Below, piece after piece: positions 17,432 through 23,938 of a stretch of 38,962 nt of DNA. Made by a program: the position numbers and the translations under genes. A model generated the notes under the pieces. It saw nothing but the letters and a program-made list of their open reading frames with translations, ran no database searches and had not been told where the DNA came from. The stretch is from Collinsella aerofaciens (GTDB lineage Bacteria; Actinomycetota; Coriobacteriia; Coriobacteriales; Coriobacteriaceae), in assembly GCF_015557435.1 (NCBI RefSeq), contig NZ_JADNOH010000003.1, positions 1 through 38,962 of the forward strand, in the 5' to 3' direction. How positions within the stretch are numbered: position 1 is the stretch's first letter; every line of letters starts with the position of its first letter.

Positions 17432-17541
17432 GGAGGGCGCCCCGGGGACGGGCGGGGTGTTTCCTCCGTGCTCAAACATTCTCGCTGCGCTGCGAAACTG
17501 CGCGCGGAGGAAACACCCCGCCCGTCCCCGGGGCGCCCTCC
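17432..17541. repeat. Perfect 37-base inverted repeat
   Basis: Bases 17432-17468 are perfectly complementary to 17505-17541, with a 36-base loop. The arms are strongly GC-rich (GGCGCCCCGGGGACGGGCGG core). The element starts 15 bases after the ABC gene stop. It is longer and more perfect than a terminator needs, and the true terminator lies further on at 17584-17616. I interpret it as a palindromic repeat element. Confidence 0.8.
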
Positions 17542-17616: not shown

Positions 17617-17643
17617 GTAAGGATGATTTGGGAAGTGGTGGAG

Positions 17644-17768
17644 GACCAGTCTTTTTGGGACGGGGCTAAATTAGCTGATTCTCCATCCCAATATCGATGA
17701 ATCAACAAATCGCAACTGATCCCTAATCCAAAACCAGCTAATTTAGCCCCGTCCCAAAAAGACTGGTC
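17644..17768. repeat. Perfect 33-base inverted repeat
   Basis: Bases 17644-17676 are perfectly complementary to 17736-17768, with a 59-base AT-richer centre. The arms begin GACCAGTCTTTTTGGGACGG. Fragments of the same arm (GCTAA, CCCCGTCCCA) recur just beyond it at 17771-17806, which suggests a decayed extra copy. No coding potential is seen in the centre. It resembles a small non-autonomous palindromic element. Confidence 0.8.
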
Positions 17769-17813
17769 AAGCTAACGGAACGCCGTAGCTAAAAATCCCC
17801 GTCCCAGAAAAAT

Positions 17814-17870
17814 CATTGCGCAGGTAGGACGGCAAAGGTAGCTAGAAAAGCCCCATCCTAAATGAGCTAC
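17814..17870. repeat. Gene-end repeat, copy 1
   Basis: This stretch of 57 bases (CATTGCGCAGGTAGGACGGC onward, ending AAATGAGCTAC) is nearly identical to 23881-23938. On the minus strand it begins with GTAGCTC, has a matching GCTAC about 25 bases on and a T-rich stretch between, as in a loose terminator. The sortase stop codon (17867-17869) is inside it. Confidence 0.7.
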
Positions 17871-18601
17871 AAGATTTCGGCTAGGAGCGCTCGGCGCCCG
17901 TTTGTTTTATCACTGCAGGTAGAAAGCGCGATGATGCGTGCATCGGGGCCAACGTCATCCATGTTCTCGTGCACCGCCGTCTGCGAGACATGCGTGAGCA
18001 GCGTCTGCATCGAGGCCTGGTCCAGGTTTCCCGGCCCAAAGATAATGTCATCACTCGCAGCAAACGAGCACACGGCAACAATGCGCAGGCGGAACGCCCC
18101 GTCCTTTGTGTAGAGCGTGCCCGTGCGGTGCAGGTCAAAGAAGCCCCTGTCTAAAAACCGGTCGACATCGCCAAACATCGCACCGTTATCCATGTGGTGC
18201 GCATAGAGCAGATTGTAGGAATCGGTCATCGCGCGACTGTTGCGCGTATCCAAAAACACCGCTCCCGAAACCGCGGACTCCCCCAACGCGTTTTTGTTGA
18301 GGTATTCCTGGTTATCTTTTCCCTGAACAAAGGGATAGTCGATGTTGGTGCCATCGATGGTGACCCATCCGACCACGTCGGAATTTTTGGTCATCAGTTC
18401 CTGCAGGCGTGCGCAATCGTTGGCCCCGGTGGGTTTGTAGTGCAGCAGCTCATCGCTGATGAACCCGCCGTTCATAACATTGTTTGTATCCCACAGCGAA
18501 TAGCCCCCGTACAGCAGCATGAGCAGCACGAGAAAGCCGGCAAACCACGTAAGTACGCGGTCGCCGGCTCTCGCCAGCCGAGCTATGCGTTTAAGCTCCA
18601 T
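17867..18601 (-). CDS. Class B sortase (pilus-associated)
   Basis: The 244-residue protein is a membrane-bound transpeptidase. It has one N-terminal membrane helix (about 16-36) and a class B sortase domain outside the cell. The catalytic histidine is in LLYAHHMDNG (His135), the nucleophile in ALSTCSD (Cys229) and the arginine in TNGRRALL (Arg236 or 237). It lies 20 bases after the pilin gene, last in the four-gene pilus operon. In streptococcal FCT islands a class B sortase in this position polymerises the pilin. It probably recognises the VPTG/VPTD signals of the two neighbouring surface proteins. Confidence 0.93.
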   Translation of the reverse strand: MELKRIARLARAGDRVLTWFAGFLVLLMLLYGGYSLWDTNNVMNGGFISDELLHYKPTGANDCARLQELMTKNSDVVGWVTIDGTNIDYPFVQGKDNQEYLNKNALGESAVSGAVFLDTRNSRAMTDSYNLLYAHHMDNGAMFGDVDRFLDRGFFDLHRTGTLYTKDGAFRLRIVAVCSFAASDDIIFGPGNLDQASMQTLLTHVSQTAVHENMDDVGPDARIIALSTCSDKTNGRRALLAEIL

Positions 18602-18621
18602 CGGCTGTAATCCTCGCTGTT

Positions 18622-19716
18622 TTAACGGCGGTTACGACGAGGACGGAAGAAGACCACGCCCATCACGGCAGCAAACGCGACGATTGCCGCATAGGGAACG
18701 ACCGTCCGAATAACATCGGTCGGAACGGTAACATCCTTGGTATTGGTAAAGATCACCGTGGTGTCGTAAGCACCGATAGCTTCCTCGGCAATAGAGCTAC
18801 CTTCTGTCGAATTGGTGCCATCACCAATCTTGTACGACGTCTTATAACCGTCGCCATGATAATCCGCCTCAGTTACGGCGAATTTATCCTCCGATGAGAG
18901 ACCGTAAACGATGACGGATTCCCCATGCTTAAGCGTCTCGGTAAACGTAGCTCCCGGCTTGGTTGTAGTTTGGTTCATGGTAGTAACACCGTTTTTCACA
19001 GTGCCATACTTATAAGTCTCCCCGTCAGCGCCTTTAATCGTGACGGTAAACTCAAAGTCCTTATTTTTATCGCCCTGGTTACCGGCTACGACCTTTGTGA
19101 TGGTCAGCTTATGGGTGACATATTTGTTCTCAAAGCCTGAGGTCTTGCTGCCCGATCCCGCCGCTGTGCTAAGAGTGCAGCCCTTAGCAACTAAGCCTGA
19201 GTTGCCATTTTCTACGTAAACATCCAGGAACAGTTCCTTGTACACAACGTTGAGGCCATCCAGCTCTGGCGACGTCTGCGTAATTTTGTATCGATAGATG
19301 CCCGGAGCCGCGAACCTTGAGGTAACAAGGCTGACGCTCATTTGGGCGGTTATTGTCTTAGTAACGCCGTCGGCATTATCTTCGCTAGAAAGACCTTCGT
19401 CAGAATAATTTACGGAAGACGGCGAAAGCGTGACGGCACCGGTCACTCCAGCAGAAACGGGCATGTTGTTACTCGTGCTCGTAAGCTCACTCGTCTCCGC
19501 CGGCGCAATCGAATAGCCGAACTCCGCATTCGGCTCCACGGCGTTCTTATTCATGGTAAGCGTCGAGGTGATTGTGACCTTGTTGTCATTTACCGGCAGA
19601 TGCGGAGTAGTAGAGCCCTCCTCCGCCCACGCCGGCGCAGCAACTCCCACCAAAGCCAGCAGCATCGTTGCGGCCACAACTGCAAATGCTGCCAGTCGCC
19701 TCTTTCCAGTTTTCAT
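18622..19716 (-). CDS. Major pilin (FctA/Spy0128-like, sortase substrate)
   Basis: The 364-residue protein has a signal peptide (1-31, ending AWA). An N-terminal domain at about 42-198 matches the streptococcal pilin isopeptide-linkage type: FAAPGIYRYKITQ, then VVYKELFLDVYVENG. A second Ig-like domain follows at 202-328 (HKLTITKVVAGNQGDKNKDF). The sorting signal is VPTDV at 331-335, followed by a hydrophobic stretch and a basic tail RPRRNRR. VPTD replaces the usual LPXTG. ATG 19716 has AGGAAGG eight bases upstream. Its position between a SipA-like gene and a class B sortase gene supports the role of shaft pilin. Isopeptide cross-links are likely from the family but not proven here. Confidence 0.9.
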   Translation of the reverse strand: MKTGKRRLAAFAVVAATMLLALVGVAAPAWAEEGSTTPHLPVNDNKVTITSTLTMNKNAVEPNAEFGYSIAPAETSELTSTSNNMPVSAGVTGAVTLSPSSVNYSDEGLSSEDNADGVTKTITAQMSVSLVTSRFAAPGIYRYKITQTSPELDGLNVVYKELFLDVYVENGNSGLVAKGCTLSTAAGSGSKTSGFENKYVTHKLTITKVVAGNQGDKNKDFEFTVTIKGADGETYKYGTVKNGVTTMNQTTTKPGATFTETLKHGESVIVYGLSSEDKFAVTEADYHGDGYKTSYKIGDGTNSTEGSSIAEEAIGAYDTTVIFTNTKDVTVPTDVIRTVVPYAAIVAFAAVMGVVFFRPRRNRR

Positions 19717-19767
19717 GTTGTATCCTTCCTCTCGGGCATATGCCCTTAATAAAACCAAGCTCCGTGC

Positions 19768-20400
19768 CTACAAGTTCGACCTGCGCAGCACGCTGATCAC
19801 GTTGCCCTTGATCTGCGAACGGGCAATCGGTCCATACAGGCGACTGTCATGCCCGCCCTCGCGCAAATCTGCCAGCACAAAGAGCTCATCCGTTCCCAGA
19901 TGCACGGGATAGTCCACAGCAGACTCATAGCGCGGCGTCGGCGTGGTGATATCGCTTTCCACCACAACAGCCCCGTTAACCATGAGCTCGCCCGACTCGG
20001 TAATCGTGACCTCATCACCGGGGCGGGCAACCACGCGACCCAGGCGCTCTTCGCCATCCGCGGTGTATACCACCACGTCACCCTCGTTAAAGCTCTGGCT
20101 GAGCCTCCAGTAGAGCATGACGTCACCCGAACAGATGCGGGGGGCCATCTCGCCAGTCGTGACCGGACCCACGCCCAGGACCACGCCAAAGAGCAGCCAG
20201 AGCGTCACGACAAAAAATGCCAGGCGCGCCAGAAAGCCCACGATATCGCGCCGGTCGTCCGCTTCTCCCAGATCTGGTGCCGCATGGGCGCCCAACCTCA
20301 CGTTCGACGCGGCCGAATACCGCGAGCCCCGGGGTCTTCCCTGCGGGGCCGCTCGTGCGGCTGGCCCATCACCAGCATTGCTGGCGCCATGTCTTCTCAT
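19768..20400 (-). CDS. SipA-like pilus assembly protein (signal peptidase fold, no catalytic dyad)
   Basis: This 210-residue protein has the signal peptidase I (S26) fold. A basic, Ala/Gly-rich N-terminal tail is followed by one membrane helix at about 54-78 and the peptidase-like domain. The motif that should read G-S-M-x-P reads GEMAP, so the nucleophile serine is Glu84. The segment that should carry the lysine reads LGRVVARPGD, so the lysine is Gly121. SipA of Streptococcus pyogenes pilus islands likewise lacks both residues yet is needed for pilus assembly. The ATG overlaps the tip-adhesin stop by four bases (ATGA). It is therefore probably a pilus chaperone, not a protease. Confidence 0.88.
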   Translation of the reverse strand: MRRHGASNAGDGPAARAAPQGRPRGSRYSAASNVRLGAHAAPDLGEADDRRDIVGFLARLAFFVVTLWLLFGVVLGVGPVTTGEMAPRICSGDVMLYWRLSQSFNEGDVVVYTADGEERLGRVVARPGDEVTITESGELMVNGAVVVESDITTPTPRYESAVDYPVHLGTDELFVLADLREGGHDSRLYGPIARSQIKGNVISVLRRSNL

Positions 20401-23400
20401 AGGCGCCCACCCCTCTTGGAGCCGCGGTGTAAACGCAGCGCAACCATGACCGTAGCCAACAGCACGCCGGCGGCCAAAATCGCCAGGGCATAGATGGGGT
20501 TGCGCGTAATACCCGTAGGCACCGCGACCTGTCGGGAATTGGTGGCCTTAGCTTCAACGGCAACGGTCACACGCGGACCGTTGAGCGTGCCGCTCGCACC
20601 CGTAAGCCTAGCCTGATACCCCAACGAAGAATAATCGTCTTCGCTCACGGTATAGACCGCGTTGTAATCCAGCGCCTTAATCGAAACGGTCAGGCCGTCC
20701 TTAACGGCAAACGGCACGGTCGCCTTGCCCTGGCCATCGGCCGTAAAGGCCGTCTTGTTTTCCACGGTCTCGGCCCGATCATTCGGTCGCGCCACGAGCG
20801 CATGGCTGCCTTGGGCAGACGCATCCGAATACTCGATGGCGTAGGTCTGACCAGCCTTGAGGCCCGTAAAGGTCGCCGTCATCTTAAAGTAGGCACGCTT
20901 GTCGCCCATATTGCCCGTAACGCTCTTGGAAACCTTGAGCGTGTAGGTGCGTGGGGTGAACCGTGCGTATACGCATCCCGTATGGCGCTCTTTTACGTTG
21001 TACGTATAGGTGGGTGAAGACGACAGCAGCTCCGGGGCGTCCGGATTTGACAGGTCGTACCAGCCCTCAAAGTGATAGCCCTCCTTGGGAGTGGCCACCG
21101 CCTCCACAAACGTGCCGTCATCCACAAAGTAGGCGATACCCGAAGTTTTGTACGCGTCGGCGTCCTTGCCCGAGCGATCCCCGGCATCGATGGAGCCCTT
21201 TGCCCCCTTAAGCTTGGAGCTGACTGTGCCGCCCGTCGTTACGTTGCTCCACGTGCCATCGGCATTTTTAAGCTGAGCAACAAAGGCCTGACGATACTTC
21301 CATTGCGCCACAAATGTCGCGCCCTGGCTCTCAGGAATGTTTTCGACCGTTACCGTATCGCCCGCAGCGCCGGTATCCGGATTGACCTTATTGCCATTAA
21401 TGGTAAGAGTGCCGGTATCTGTAGTTCCCTCGGGAGCCGCATGGGTCACTGTGTGCTCGGCACCAAAACGAATAGCTTTTCCCGAGCCCGCATACTCCCA
21501 GCCCATAAACATCCAGCCGTCGTTTTGTCCTTCGGCAGCATGGGAGGTATAGCTCGCTCCAGCACCAGAAAGCTGCACGAAATCGCCCGTGGAATCATCG
21601 GACGGATTATAGTGATACGCTTTGCCGCCGTTCACATCGTATTGAACGCCCGCCTTAGAAAACACAAGGTGCACTTTGTAGTGCTTTGTGACCTTGTCGA
21701 CCTTAAAGTGATAGGTGCAATCGTCCAATATGGTCCAATGCTCAGCATCGTCCGCGGAATAGAACTCGCCGTTGACAAAAGCACCGATAAAGACTGCCCC
21801 GTCATCGCGCTTGGCATCGACCATAAAGTAGGAGTTCTTTTCCTGTTTACCTACGTAGTTTTTGGCATAGGTAAAGTCGGCGGTCTTGGTATCGGAATTA
21901 TAAAAATACGTTCCGCTTCCGTTGGGCGTCGTGTACGTCTCGATGCGATAGAACTCCCTAAACGAGATATTGTCGAGGAAGTTGCCGATCGAATTGCTCC
22001 CGTTGGCCGTGTTGTAGGCCACAAAAGCAAAGACGCTCTGGTTTTGGCCATCCGGAATGGTGTAGGTATAGTCGTAGTCAACCTTTTTGTTCTGCTCGAG
22101 CGCGTTGGAACCGTAGGAAGCCCAAGCGTCGTTTTCGGACGCCATGATCCACACGCACCATTTTTCGGTATGTTCCGCATCGGCCGTCCACGAGAACGCG
22201 CTTCCGCTGGACGCATTGGCAAATCCGCCCACTTTGTCAAACTTAGTCGAATACAGGATGATCTTTTTGCTGCAGCCCGATTGGGAAAAATTGGCCACAT
22301 CCAAGCCGACATAGTTATCGACGCTCATTTGAATCCATTGAACAATTTGCTGGTACTGATCGAGTGCCTTTTGATTGTCCTTGTACGGCTCGTTTTCTTG
22401 TCGCGGACCGATGATAAGGGCCATGGCGTCTCGACCCGAGCGGCCGCGGTGGTCGAGCCCCCACTCGTACTGTTTTCCCGGCTCGGTCGTCACATATTGG
22501 TAGAGCGAACTCGCCTCGTGTGCGTTGAGCTCGGCTGCATAGTCACCATCGGAGGGCGTAAACGTAACAGAATGCCCAGCTGGGTCGATATAGTAGTCGT
22601 TCTGGGCAACGATCTCGATACGATGGTCTGTCTCGGTCGTACGCCAATGGGGCGAGCACAACGTAAACTTGCTGGGCCTCTGGTTCCCTAGATGTATATC
22701 CTCTTCAAAGCCGCCGTTAGCAATGTTCGTATTCTCGTTCTTAAGATTCGAGGTCGAGAACGCATAGCGCGTGAGCGTTGTCATGGTCTCGGACGAGTTT
22801 TCCTGATACACCTTGGCAAAGTCGCTATAGATGTTGCGCGTGCCCTGCTTTTCCACGTGAACGTCGTTGACCAGATTGCCAAACCACTCCCGGTATTGTT
22901 CGTTTGCCCCCGTAAGATTTGAATCGTAGCAAGTTAGTGCAAGCATCGTGTTTTCGGACGCTGCGGCATAGACTGCCTGATAGGCAAACTCATCGTCTTG
23001 CTCGGGAAGCGCTCGATAATAGTGTGTACTGTTGGTGCCAAAGGAGAACCAACCCTGTCCGTTAGAGCTTACGAGCCACACAGAAAGCGCAATGCGACCG
23101 TCGCTCTGCTCAAACGAGAAGTGAGATCCGTCGGCGCTGCTACCAGCAAAGCCGCCATTTGCAGCAAAGGGATCGCTGTAAACGGTGTACTGCTCAACGG
23201 TATTTCCCTGGGGCATCTTGCCCTGCGCCTTAAGCCAAGTCCGCAGCTGCATGAGCTGGTCTTGGCCTGCGCTGTTAACCGACAGATTCTCCTGTTGAGG
23301 ACCCATCGTGAGCATCAGCACGTCGTGTTCGGTTGCGGCGCGATGGTTGAGGCCCCACTCGTACGTGGAGCCGCTCTGGGTGGAAAAGGTGGTGTAGGTT

Positions 23401-23639
23401 GATCCGGGTTCAAAATAAGCATTGGTATCCTGTGGCTTAAGATTCCACGCAAGCGCAAAGTGATTACCGTTAGCTTGTTTGAGGTTTCTTTGACCGTTGA
23501 GGAGCTTCGTGGGGAGGTCGAGGTACGACGCCTCGCCGATTCTCTTTCTCGGAGAGGTCGTCGACCAACCAGAAGCTTGGTTGGTAAAGGTTGGGTTCGC
23601 TATAAGGTTGCCATCGTCACCGTACGCACGCGAGGGCAA
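20397..23639 (-). CDS. Large pilus tip adhesin (Cpa-like position), open frame without its own start
   Basis: A frame of 1080 codons encodes a cell-wall surface protein. Residues 11-265 and 305-565 are diverged copies of one domain; both contain YEWGL(N/D)HR, a GPQQEN or GPRQEN motif, and GGFA followed by a VW(L/I) stretch. Two InlB-type repeats follow at about 664-783 and 784-895 (GWMFMGWEY, ATFVAQWKY, GYHFEGWYD). A pilin-like domain with YTLKVSKSVTGNMGDKRAYF spans 898-1035. The sorting signal is VPTGI (1040-1044), then a hydrophobic stretch and a basic tail. The only possible start in frame is a TTG at 23639 with no ribosome site. The signal peptide lies just upstream in another frame, beyond a run of ten G. 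Full expression therefore needs a length change in that run. It is first in the pilus operon. Confidence 0.85.
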   Translation of the reverse strand: MPSRAYGDDGNLIANPTFTNQASGWSTTSPRKRIGEASYLDLPTKLLNGQRNLKQANGNHFALAWNLKPQDTNAYFEPGSTYTTFSTQSGSTYEWGLNHRAATEHDVLMLTMGPQQENLSVNSAGQDQLMQLRTWLKAQGKMPQGNTVEQYTVYSDPFAANGGFAGSSADGSHFSFEQSDGRIALSVWLVSSNGQGWFSFGTNSTHYYRALPEQDDEFAYQAVYAAASENTMLALTCYDSNLTGANEQYREWFGNLVNDVHVEKQGTRNIYSDFAKVYQENSSETMTTLTRYAFSTSNLKNENTNIANGGFEEDIHLGNQRPSKFTLCSPHWRTTETDHRIEIVAQNDYYIDPAGHSVTFTPSDGDYAAELNAHEASSLYQYVTTEPGKQYEWGLDHRGRSGRDAMALIIGPRQENEPYKDNQKALDQYQQIVQWIQMSVDNYVGLDVANFSQSGCSKKIILYSTKFDKVGGFANASSGSAFSWTADAEHTEKWCVWIMASENDAWASYGSNALEQNKKVDYDYTYTIPDGQNQSVFAFVAYNTANGSNSIGNFLDNISFREFYRIETYTTPNGSGTYFYNSDTKTADFTYAKNYVGKQEKNSYFMVDAKRDDGAVFIGAFVNGEFYSADDAEHWTILDDCTYHFKVDKVTKHYKVHLVFSKAGVQYDVNGGKAYHYNPSDDSTGDFVQLSGAGASYTSHAAEGQNDGWMFMGWEYAGSGKAIRFGAEHTVTHAAPEGTTDTGTLTINGNKVNPDTGAAGDTVTVENIPESQGATFVAQWKYRQAFVAQLKNADGTWSNVTTGGTVSSKLKGAKGSIDAGDRSGKDADAYKTSGIAYFVDDGTFVEAVATPKEGYHFEGWYDLSNPDAPELLSSSPTYTYNVKERHTGCVYARFTPRTYTLKVSKSVTGNMGDKRAYFKMTATFTGLKAGQTYAIEYSDASAQGSHALVARPNDRAETVENKTAFTADGQGKATVPFAVKDGLTVSIKALDYNAVYTVSEDDYSSLGYQARLTGASGTLNGPRVTVAVEAKATNSRQVAVPTGITRNPIYALAILAAGVLLATVMVALRLHRGSKRGGRL

Positions 23640-23703
23640 CCCCCCCCCCGACCATAACGAACGCGCATAAGACCGCTGCCAACATCACAAAGGTGCGGCG
23701 CAT
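23640..23703 (-). other. Out-of-frame signal peptide segment with G10 tract (phase-variation switch)
   Basis: On the minus strand, ATG at 23703 opens MRRTFVMLAAVLCAFVMV, a textbook signal-peptide start, and then enters a run of ten G (C on the plus strand, 23640-23649). With ten G the frame ends at a TGA after 28 codons. With nine, or twelve, it joins the adhesin frame as GGGLPSRAYG-DDG, completing a signal peptide with a plausible cleavage site. No other in-frame start exists for the adhesin. No clear ribosome site precedes 23703. A sequencing or assembly error in the run is the main alternative. Confidence 0.8.
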
Positions 23704-23741
23704 CGACGCAATATGACCGAAAGGACCCTGCACGGGCGCAT

Positions 23742-23840
23742 CCCCCCCCAGCCGCAGCCCGAGCATTCGAGCAAGCTGCACAAGTAGTTCGTTTAGGCCT
23801 TGTCATTCTACAACCAGCTCATGGCAAAAGCAAAATCATA
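23742..23840 (-). promoter_or_regulatory. Pilus operon 5' region with second G tract (G8) and candidate -10
   Basis: A second homopolymer, eight C on the plus strand (23742-23749), lies 39 bases upstream of the signal-peptide ATG. An ATG at 23806 opens a frame that runs through it. With seven G instead of eight that frame would join MRRTFV in phase, giving a long N-terminal extension. TATGAT (minus strand, 23835-23840) is a candidate -10 box about 29 bases before 23806; no good -35 is visible. Which ATG is used cannot be decided. Confidence 0.4.
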
Positions 23841-23880
23841 CGTGACCGATTTGGAGTCATTTTTCGCACCTCATTTTTCG

Positions 23881-23938
23881 CATTGCGCAGGTAGGACGGC
23901 AAAAGTAGCCAAAAAAGCCCCGCGCCAAATGAGCTACT
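23881..23938. repeat. Gene-end repeat, copy 2
   Basis: Nearly identical to 17814-17870. As there, it overlaps the last codons and the TAG stop of a minus-strand gene, here the LysR regulator (23934-23936). On the minus strand AGTAGC pairs with GCTACT around a loop with a T run, so it can act as a terminator for the LysR gene before the pilus promoter. Confidence 0.7.

Follow-up and report, generated by a model that had tools for sequence, protein, structure and literature searches.

Background

In Bifidobacterium breve UCC2003, a G-tract switch of sortase-dependent pili is experimentally supported for the clusters bbr_0113 and bbr_1889; the run varies within populations and shifts in mice, and in-frame derivatives bore pilus-like structures (PMC9187656). 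Transcription was lost downstream of the early stop, which was ascribed to polarity (PMC9187656). Here, we analysed a 38,962-nucleotide (nt) stretch of Collinsella aerofaciens DNA (contig NZ_JADNOH010000003.1, positions 1 to 38,962; hereafter the window), in which a run of ten G (G10) lies within the signal-peptide codons of a gene for a large pilus surface protein, termed the adhesin below. As in B. breve, the gene is the first of a sortase-pilus operon, the run lies between the Sec signal and the anchored part, gain or omission of Gs joins the frames, polarity would be expected downstream, and the organism belongs to a gut actinobacterial phylum. Unlike B. breve, Collinsella belongs to the Coriobacteriia, its FCT-like operon encodes a SipA-like signal peptidase and a class B sortase, another G run of variable length lies at the likely ribosome-binding site, and the system is known here from assemblies alone. 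The results below support reading the Collinsella locus as a further instance of an arrangement already known from B. breve pili.

Judged by its genes, the operon resembles the streptococcal FCT pilus in make-up, as Streptococcus pyogenes has a related peptidase (SipA), a related major pilin (Spy0128/T-antigen) and a class B sortase. Streptococcal FCT operons are ordered as large surface protein, SipA-like peptidase, pilin and class B sortase, and the Collinsella genes follow the same order. Unlike the S. pyogenes system, the large Collinsella protein has no sequence relation to solved structures, and we know of no G-run control in a streptococcal FCT operon. In the Pil1 pilus of Streptococcus gallolyticus, repeat-length changes upstream of the operon alter expression (PMC3894217); these are GCAGA repeats in a leader peptide that act by attenuation, whereas the Collinsella run consists of G and lies in a signal peptide. 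The surface-protein gene inlA of Listeria carries a homopolymeric tract at its 5' end, with a short product when shifted (PMC2831843), but that tract is poly(A) and the Collinsella run poly(G). A literature search, outside which most subscription papers lay, found no report of phase variation in Collinsella.

The G10 run and the adhesin reading frames

On the minus strand, an ATG at 23703-23701 is followed by MRRTFVMLAAVLCAFVMV, which comprises 18 signal-peptide codons, and then by exactly ten G at 23640-23649. As recorded, the frame from this ATG closes after 28 codons within the signal peptide, ending in GGGVALACVR and a stop, and the adhesin frame (20397-23639, minus strand; 1080 codons) opens in mid-signal-peptide at the base directly after the run. 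This confirmed the initial annotation, which had described a G10 tract splitting the adhesin signal peptide and recorded in the closed state. It had also held that nine G would continue into the adhesin, and nature provides this allele: the relative G001 carries G9 and reads MRRTFMMLAAALCVFVMAGGGLPSRAYGDDG without a stop. A homopolymer in the 5' coding part whose length change by a single base opens or closes the frame was thus found, as in slipped-strand phase-variable genes.

The length of the run by itself is weak evidence. Between 0.09 and 0.02 G10 words were expected in the window on both strands (Markov models of order 1 to 3, with two runs removed), and the genome of the window, a 102-contig draft of 2.37 Mb, holds three runs of at least ten G, so that a G10 is unusual in the window and not astonishing in the genome. 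The case for more than chance comes from the position of the run, its conservation in four genomes and its change in length.

Comparison with relatives

Relatives were searched among 45 Collinsella genomes, including that of the window (G000). The adhesin was present in four of them (G000, G001, G008 and G025) at 93-94% identity. A family-wide search returned the full protein only in these four genus members and distant partial matches otherwise, and a scan of the genome contigs with the adhesin alignment gave no additional copies. Two short leader-like matches in G044 were discarded as chance, being situated in an unrelated duplicated stretch.

The run is G10 and closed in G000, G008 and G025, and G9 and open in G001, where it reads through to a 1,111-codon adhesin counted from the GTG start proposed below. 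The strain comparison suggested with the initial annotation thus did not return one invariant closed length. Both frames occur in nature, and run lengths differ between closely similar loci, although four copies are too few to resolve the direction or number of the length changes. All four adhesin bodies have the same length of 3,243 nt, with neither stops nor insertions or deletions (indels), and the ratio of non-synonymous to synonymous substitution rates (dN/dS) of the window copy against the other three was 0.23-0.28. By this measure, the gene is kept under purifying selection rather than dead, and appears functional despite its closed alleles. Three closed copies under purifying selection are predicted by a switch and not by a dead gene.

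Probable start codon, upstream G8 run and probable promoter

A second run, G8, which the initial annotation had overlooked, lies in the 5' leader (23742-23749, minus strand). An in-frame GTG at 23733 follows it at a distance of 8 nt in the window and G001, and of 7 nt in G008 and G025. The pairing energy with the 16S tail for this GTG lay between -11.0 and -12.8 kcal/mol across the four genomes, as strong as at the peptidase and pilin genes, whereas ATG 23703 reached only -4.6 kcal/mol, close to the median of random sites and hence background, with no Shine-Dalgarno pairing. Because of this difference, GTG 23733 is probably the true start, in which case the signal-peptide portion of the adhesin would span 23640-23733 on the minus strand (alternatively, from ATG 23703). 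The frame described initially closes where it was said to, but its start should probably be moved, giving a closed product of 38 rather than 28 codons. Two further starts were rejected, namely TTG 23639, which abuts the G run without spacing and yields no signal peptide, and an in-frame ATG lying upstream, found in the window as CGA ATG CTC, which is not conserved and reads AAG in G001.

Pairing, spacing and conservation indicate that the G8 run is likely the ribosome-binding site. The block 23763-23704 showed zero substitutions against G001, with several in the flanking blocks. In the alignment of the four genomes, the window and G001 show G8A, G008 shows G7, and G025 keeps G8 but not the A. 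Across 6.2 kb, the G008 and G025 loci share 99.87% identity, and the sole internal indel between them falls in this run, for which the chance for a random position is 0.3%. The length of the G8 run may thus tune translation as a second, graded control.

Upstream, TTGCTT-17-TAGAAT with a TG before the -10 element (23804-23832, minus strand) is the probable promoter. It was read from the sequence, with a pattern check, and is conserved in all four genomes; a consensus promoter scan did not return it. Attenuation by leader RNA structure was considered and found unsupported, the leader folding more weakly than its shuffles (z 1.6).

Mismatch repair and a parallel locus

No MutS1 or NucS was found in G000, G001 and G025, in which control searches were positive, and MutL gave only weak matches below the cut-off. 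All Coriobacteriia analysed previously were without both repair systems (PMC5290159). With no MutS, MutL or NucS detected, a slipped G10 is expected to stay unrepaired.

A second surface-protein gene of the window genome (G000:C46:22324-22332; L004, L029) carries a G9 run directly after its signal peptide. Among its orthologues, ten genomes have G9 and an open frame, and two have G10 with an immediate stop; the named-genome records of this locus largely represented genomes already in the set and were counted once. These alleles point to a parallel switch.

Proposed mechanism

We regard the G10 run as very probably a contingency switch that controls the pilus operon by slipped-strand changes, the pili being predicted from their genes. 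The initial annotation had called it a likely phase-variable switch, a view strengthened in this comparison of assemblies by the G9 and G10 alleles, purifying selection, the parallel locus and the missing MutS, MutL and NucS. Translation would begin upstream, probably at GTG 23733 with the G8 run as Shine-Dalgarno sequence, and reach the run by way of the signal-peptide codons. Where the number of Gs is a multiple of three, the ribosome would proceed into the adhesin, which would then be exported. With ten G, it would meet a stop a few codons on and the adhesin would not be well expressed; the downstream pilus genes would be low as well, through the ATGA-coupled start of the next gene and probably through transcriptional polarity over 3 kb of untranslated message. 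Replication slippage would gain or lose single Gs, uncorrected without MutS/MutL and NucS, so that a population would carry both states and selection in the gut would move their ratio. The G8 run farther upstream may adjust translation by degrees, as an additional level of control. We infer that slippage takes place within a strain, that polarity acts on the downstream genes, and that pili assemble and mediate adhesion.

Alternative explanations

Several observations weigh against a switch. Every run-length difference found lies between species or between assemblies, and the recorded length of a G run is prone to error; in the B. breve study, too, a database run length disagreed with the population majority (PMC9187656). 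The open allele is known once only, in G001, and G008 holds long poly-G stretches that resemble assembly artefacts. Runs of at least nine G are not clearly over-represented genome-wide under simple base models, the signal residing in their location, and the leader RNA has no unusual structure. A sequencing or assembly error, by which the run would truly be nine in all strains and the gene always on, would fit the difficulty of sequencing G homopolymers, the 102-contig draft state of the window genome and the spurious-looking poly-G in some assemblies of the genus. However, ten G were recorded in three genomes and nine in one, and the parallel surface-protein locus has mostly nine in similar assemblies; such mixed calls across both loci indicate no uniform bias toward ten, and we consider an error of this kind very improbable. 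A fixed frameshift that took the gene permanently out of use would account for the closed state in three of four genomes, but it is disfavoured and the least probable explanation examined, given a dN/dS of 0.23-0.28, the lack of any further stop or indel across the 3.2 kb of any closed copy, and the conservation of promoter, ribosome site and gene junction.

If RNA polymerase slipped on the G10 run in a programmed manner, or ribosomes shifted frame there, a constant minority of in-frame product would instead arise from DNA of largely fixed length. A run of ten G can be slippery for either machinery, and this reading would reconcile the commoner closed allele (three of four) with a body under purifying selection. 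Against it, the G9 allele of G001 requires no recoding, DNA length varies at the parallel surface-gene locus too, altered run length accompanied visible pili in the B. breve analogue, and no conserved stimulatory RNA structure was found in the leader. We therefore judge recoding unlikely and favour a slipped-strand switch in the DNA.

Poly-G runs elsewhere in Collinsella

In G001, seven of the eight runs of at least nine G sit close to a gene's 5' end and on its coding strand, in genes for Flp-like pilins, surface proteins, a sugar transferase and one gene without identification; the approximate chance of this placement, classified by eye and assuming 2,000-2,300 genes, is about 1e-7. The two Flp-like pilin genes carry G10 and G11 at about codon 8 (Flp-like loci with such runs: L066, L068 and L121). 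Contig C50 of the window genome (L020) ends inside the matching G run of an Flp-like pilin gene, where the assembly breaks. In a GBS104-like tip pilin with a vWA domain (L080, in G014), G10 interrupts the signal peptide, so that an unrelated pilus protein shows the layout of the adhesin. Bacterial sugar transferase genes at L086, L115 and L122 have G9-G11 runs at their 5' ends, which suggests a switchable surface polysaccharide. A G10 run also lies in the 5' leader of the gene for an anchored protein of 4,006 residues, in which 15 stretches match FctA-type domains (G000:C25; L021, 4017-16034). At G000:C55:29199-29209 (L008), a G11 run occupies the ribosome-binding site six nt before the ATG of a LuxR-type membrane regulator, a layout like that of the G8 run in the adhesin leader; most relatives have G5 there, and two have G12 or G9.

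Genomes G032, G033 and G034 and the region G008:C6:692176-692328 contain hundreds of G10 words or very long poly-G, which are probably sequencing or assembly artefacts, and single alleles in G008, G032, G033 and G034 are to be read with care.

Tentatively, with chances that we put slightly short of even, these runs may together make up a poly-G contingency system of the whole genus, which the absence of any known mismatch repair would favour and which would independently switch sortase pili, Flp-like pilins, giant anchored proteins and surface-sugar enzymes; it would include the second slippable run as the ribosome site of the pilus operon, adding graded control atop the ON/OFF state. The genus Collinsella is common in the human gut. 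Should its pili and surface sugars switch randomly, a strain scored as pilus-negative from a single assembly may be a mixed population, and work on host interaction would have to take the state into account. A lineage that retains hypermutable runs at surface genes while lacking MutS, MutL and NucS would also make the link between repair loss and phase variation directly testable.

The pilus operon and its surroundings

The adhesin body (20397-23639, minus strand) contains two N-terminal repeats, an InlB-type B-repeat (below the cut-off), a DUF7601 domain and a tail of VPTGI, membrane segment and charged residues, this sorting tail being read from the sequence. No match was found among solved structures, including solved adhesins, and modelling gave no usable structure for the N-terminal repeat (predicted local distance difference test score, pLDDT, 33). 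The tentative assignment of the large protein as the pilus tip adhesin, the Cpa-like component of an FCT-like operon, is suggested by position and size.

On the same strand follow a SipA-like signal peptidase (19768-20400; best solved relative SipA 4n31, E 1.7e-24), a major pilin of the FctA/Spy0128 (T-antigen-like) type (18622-19716), which shares DUF7601 with the large protein, and a class B sortase (17867-18601; TIGR03064, above the curated cut-off). Class B sortase, SipA-like peptidase and Spy0128-like pilin thus occur together, as in FCT-like pilus operons. In each of the four genomes, the adhesin stop and the ATG of the peptidase share bases (ATGA), and a closed adhesin frame should therefore depress the next gene too. 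The overlap and the FCT-like downstream genes bear out the initial placement of the adhesin gene at the head of a pilus operon.

The operon forms an accessory block of about 6.3 kb (17620-23935). The operon itself is flanked by a 57-nt direct repeat, which a repeat search located on the plus strand upstream of the operon (outer copy, 23881-23937) and downstream of it (17814-17870; 88% identical). In G032, G033 and G004, the block is absent and the end of the LysR gene joins straight to the sequence at about 17620. Between the operon and an ABC transporter gene lie two long, near-perfect inverted repeats, at 17432-17541 and 17644-17768, with arms of 43 and 37 nt.
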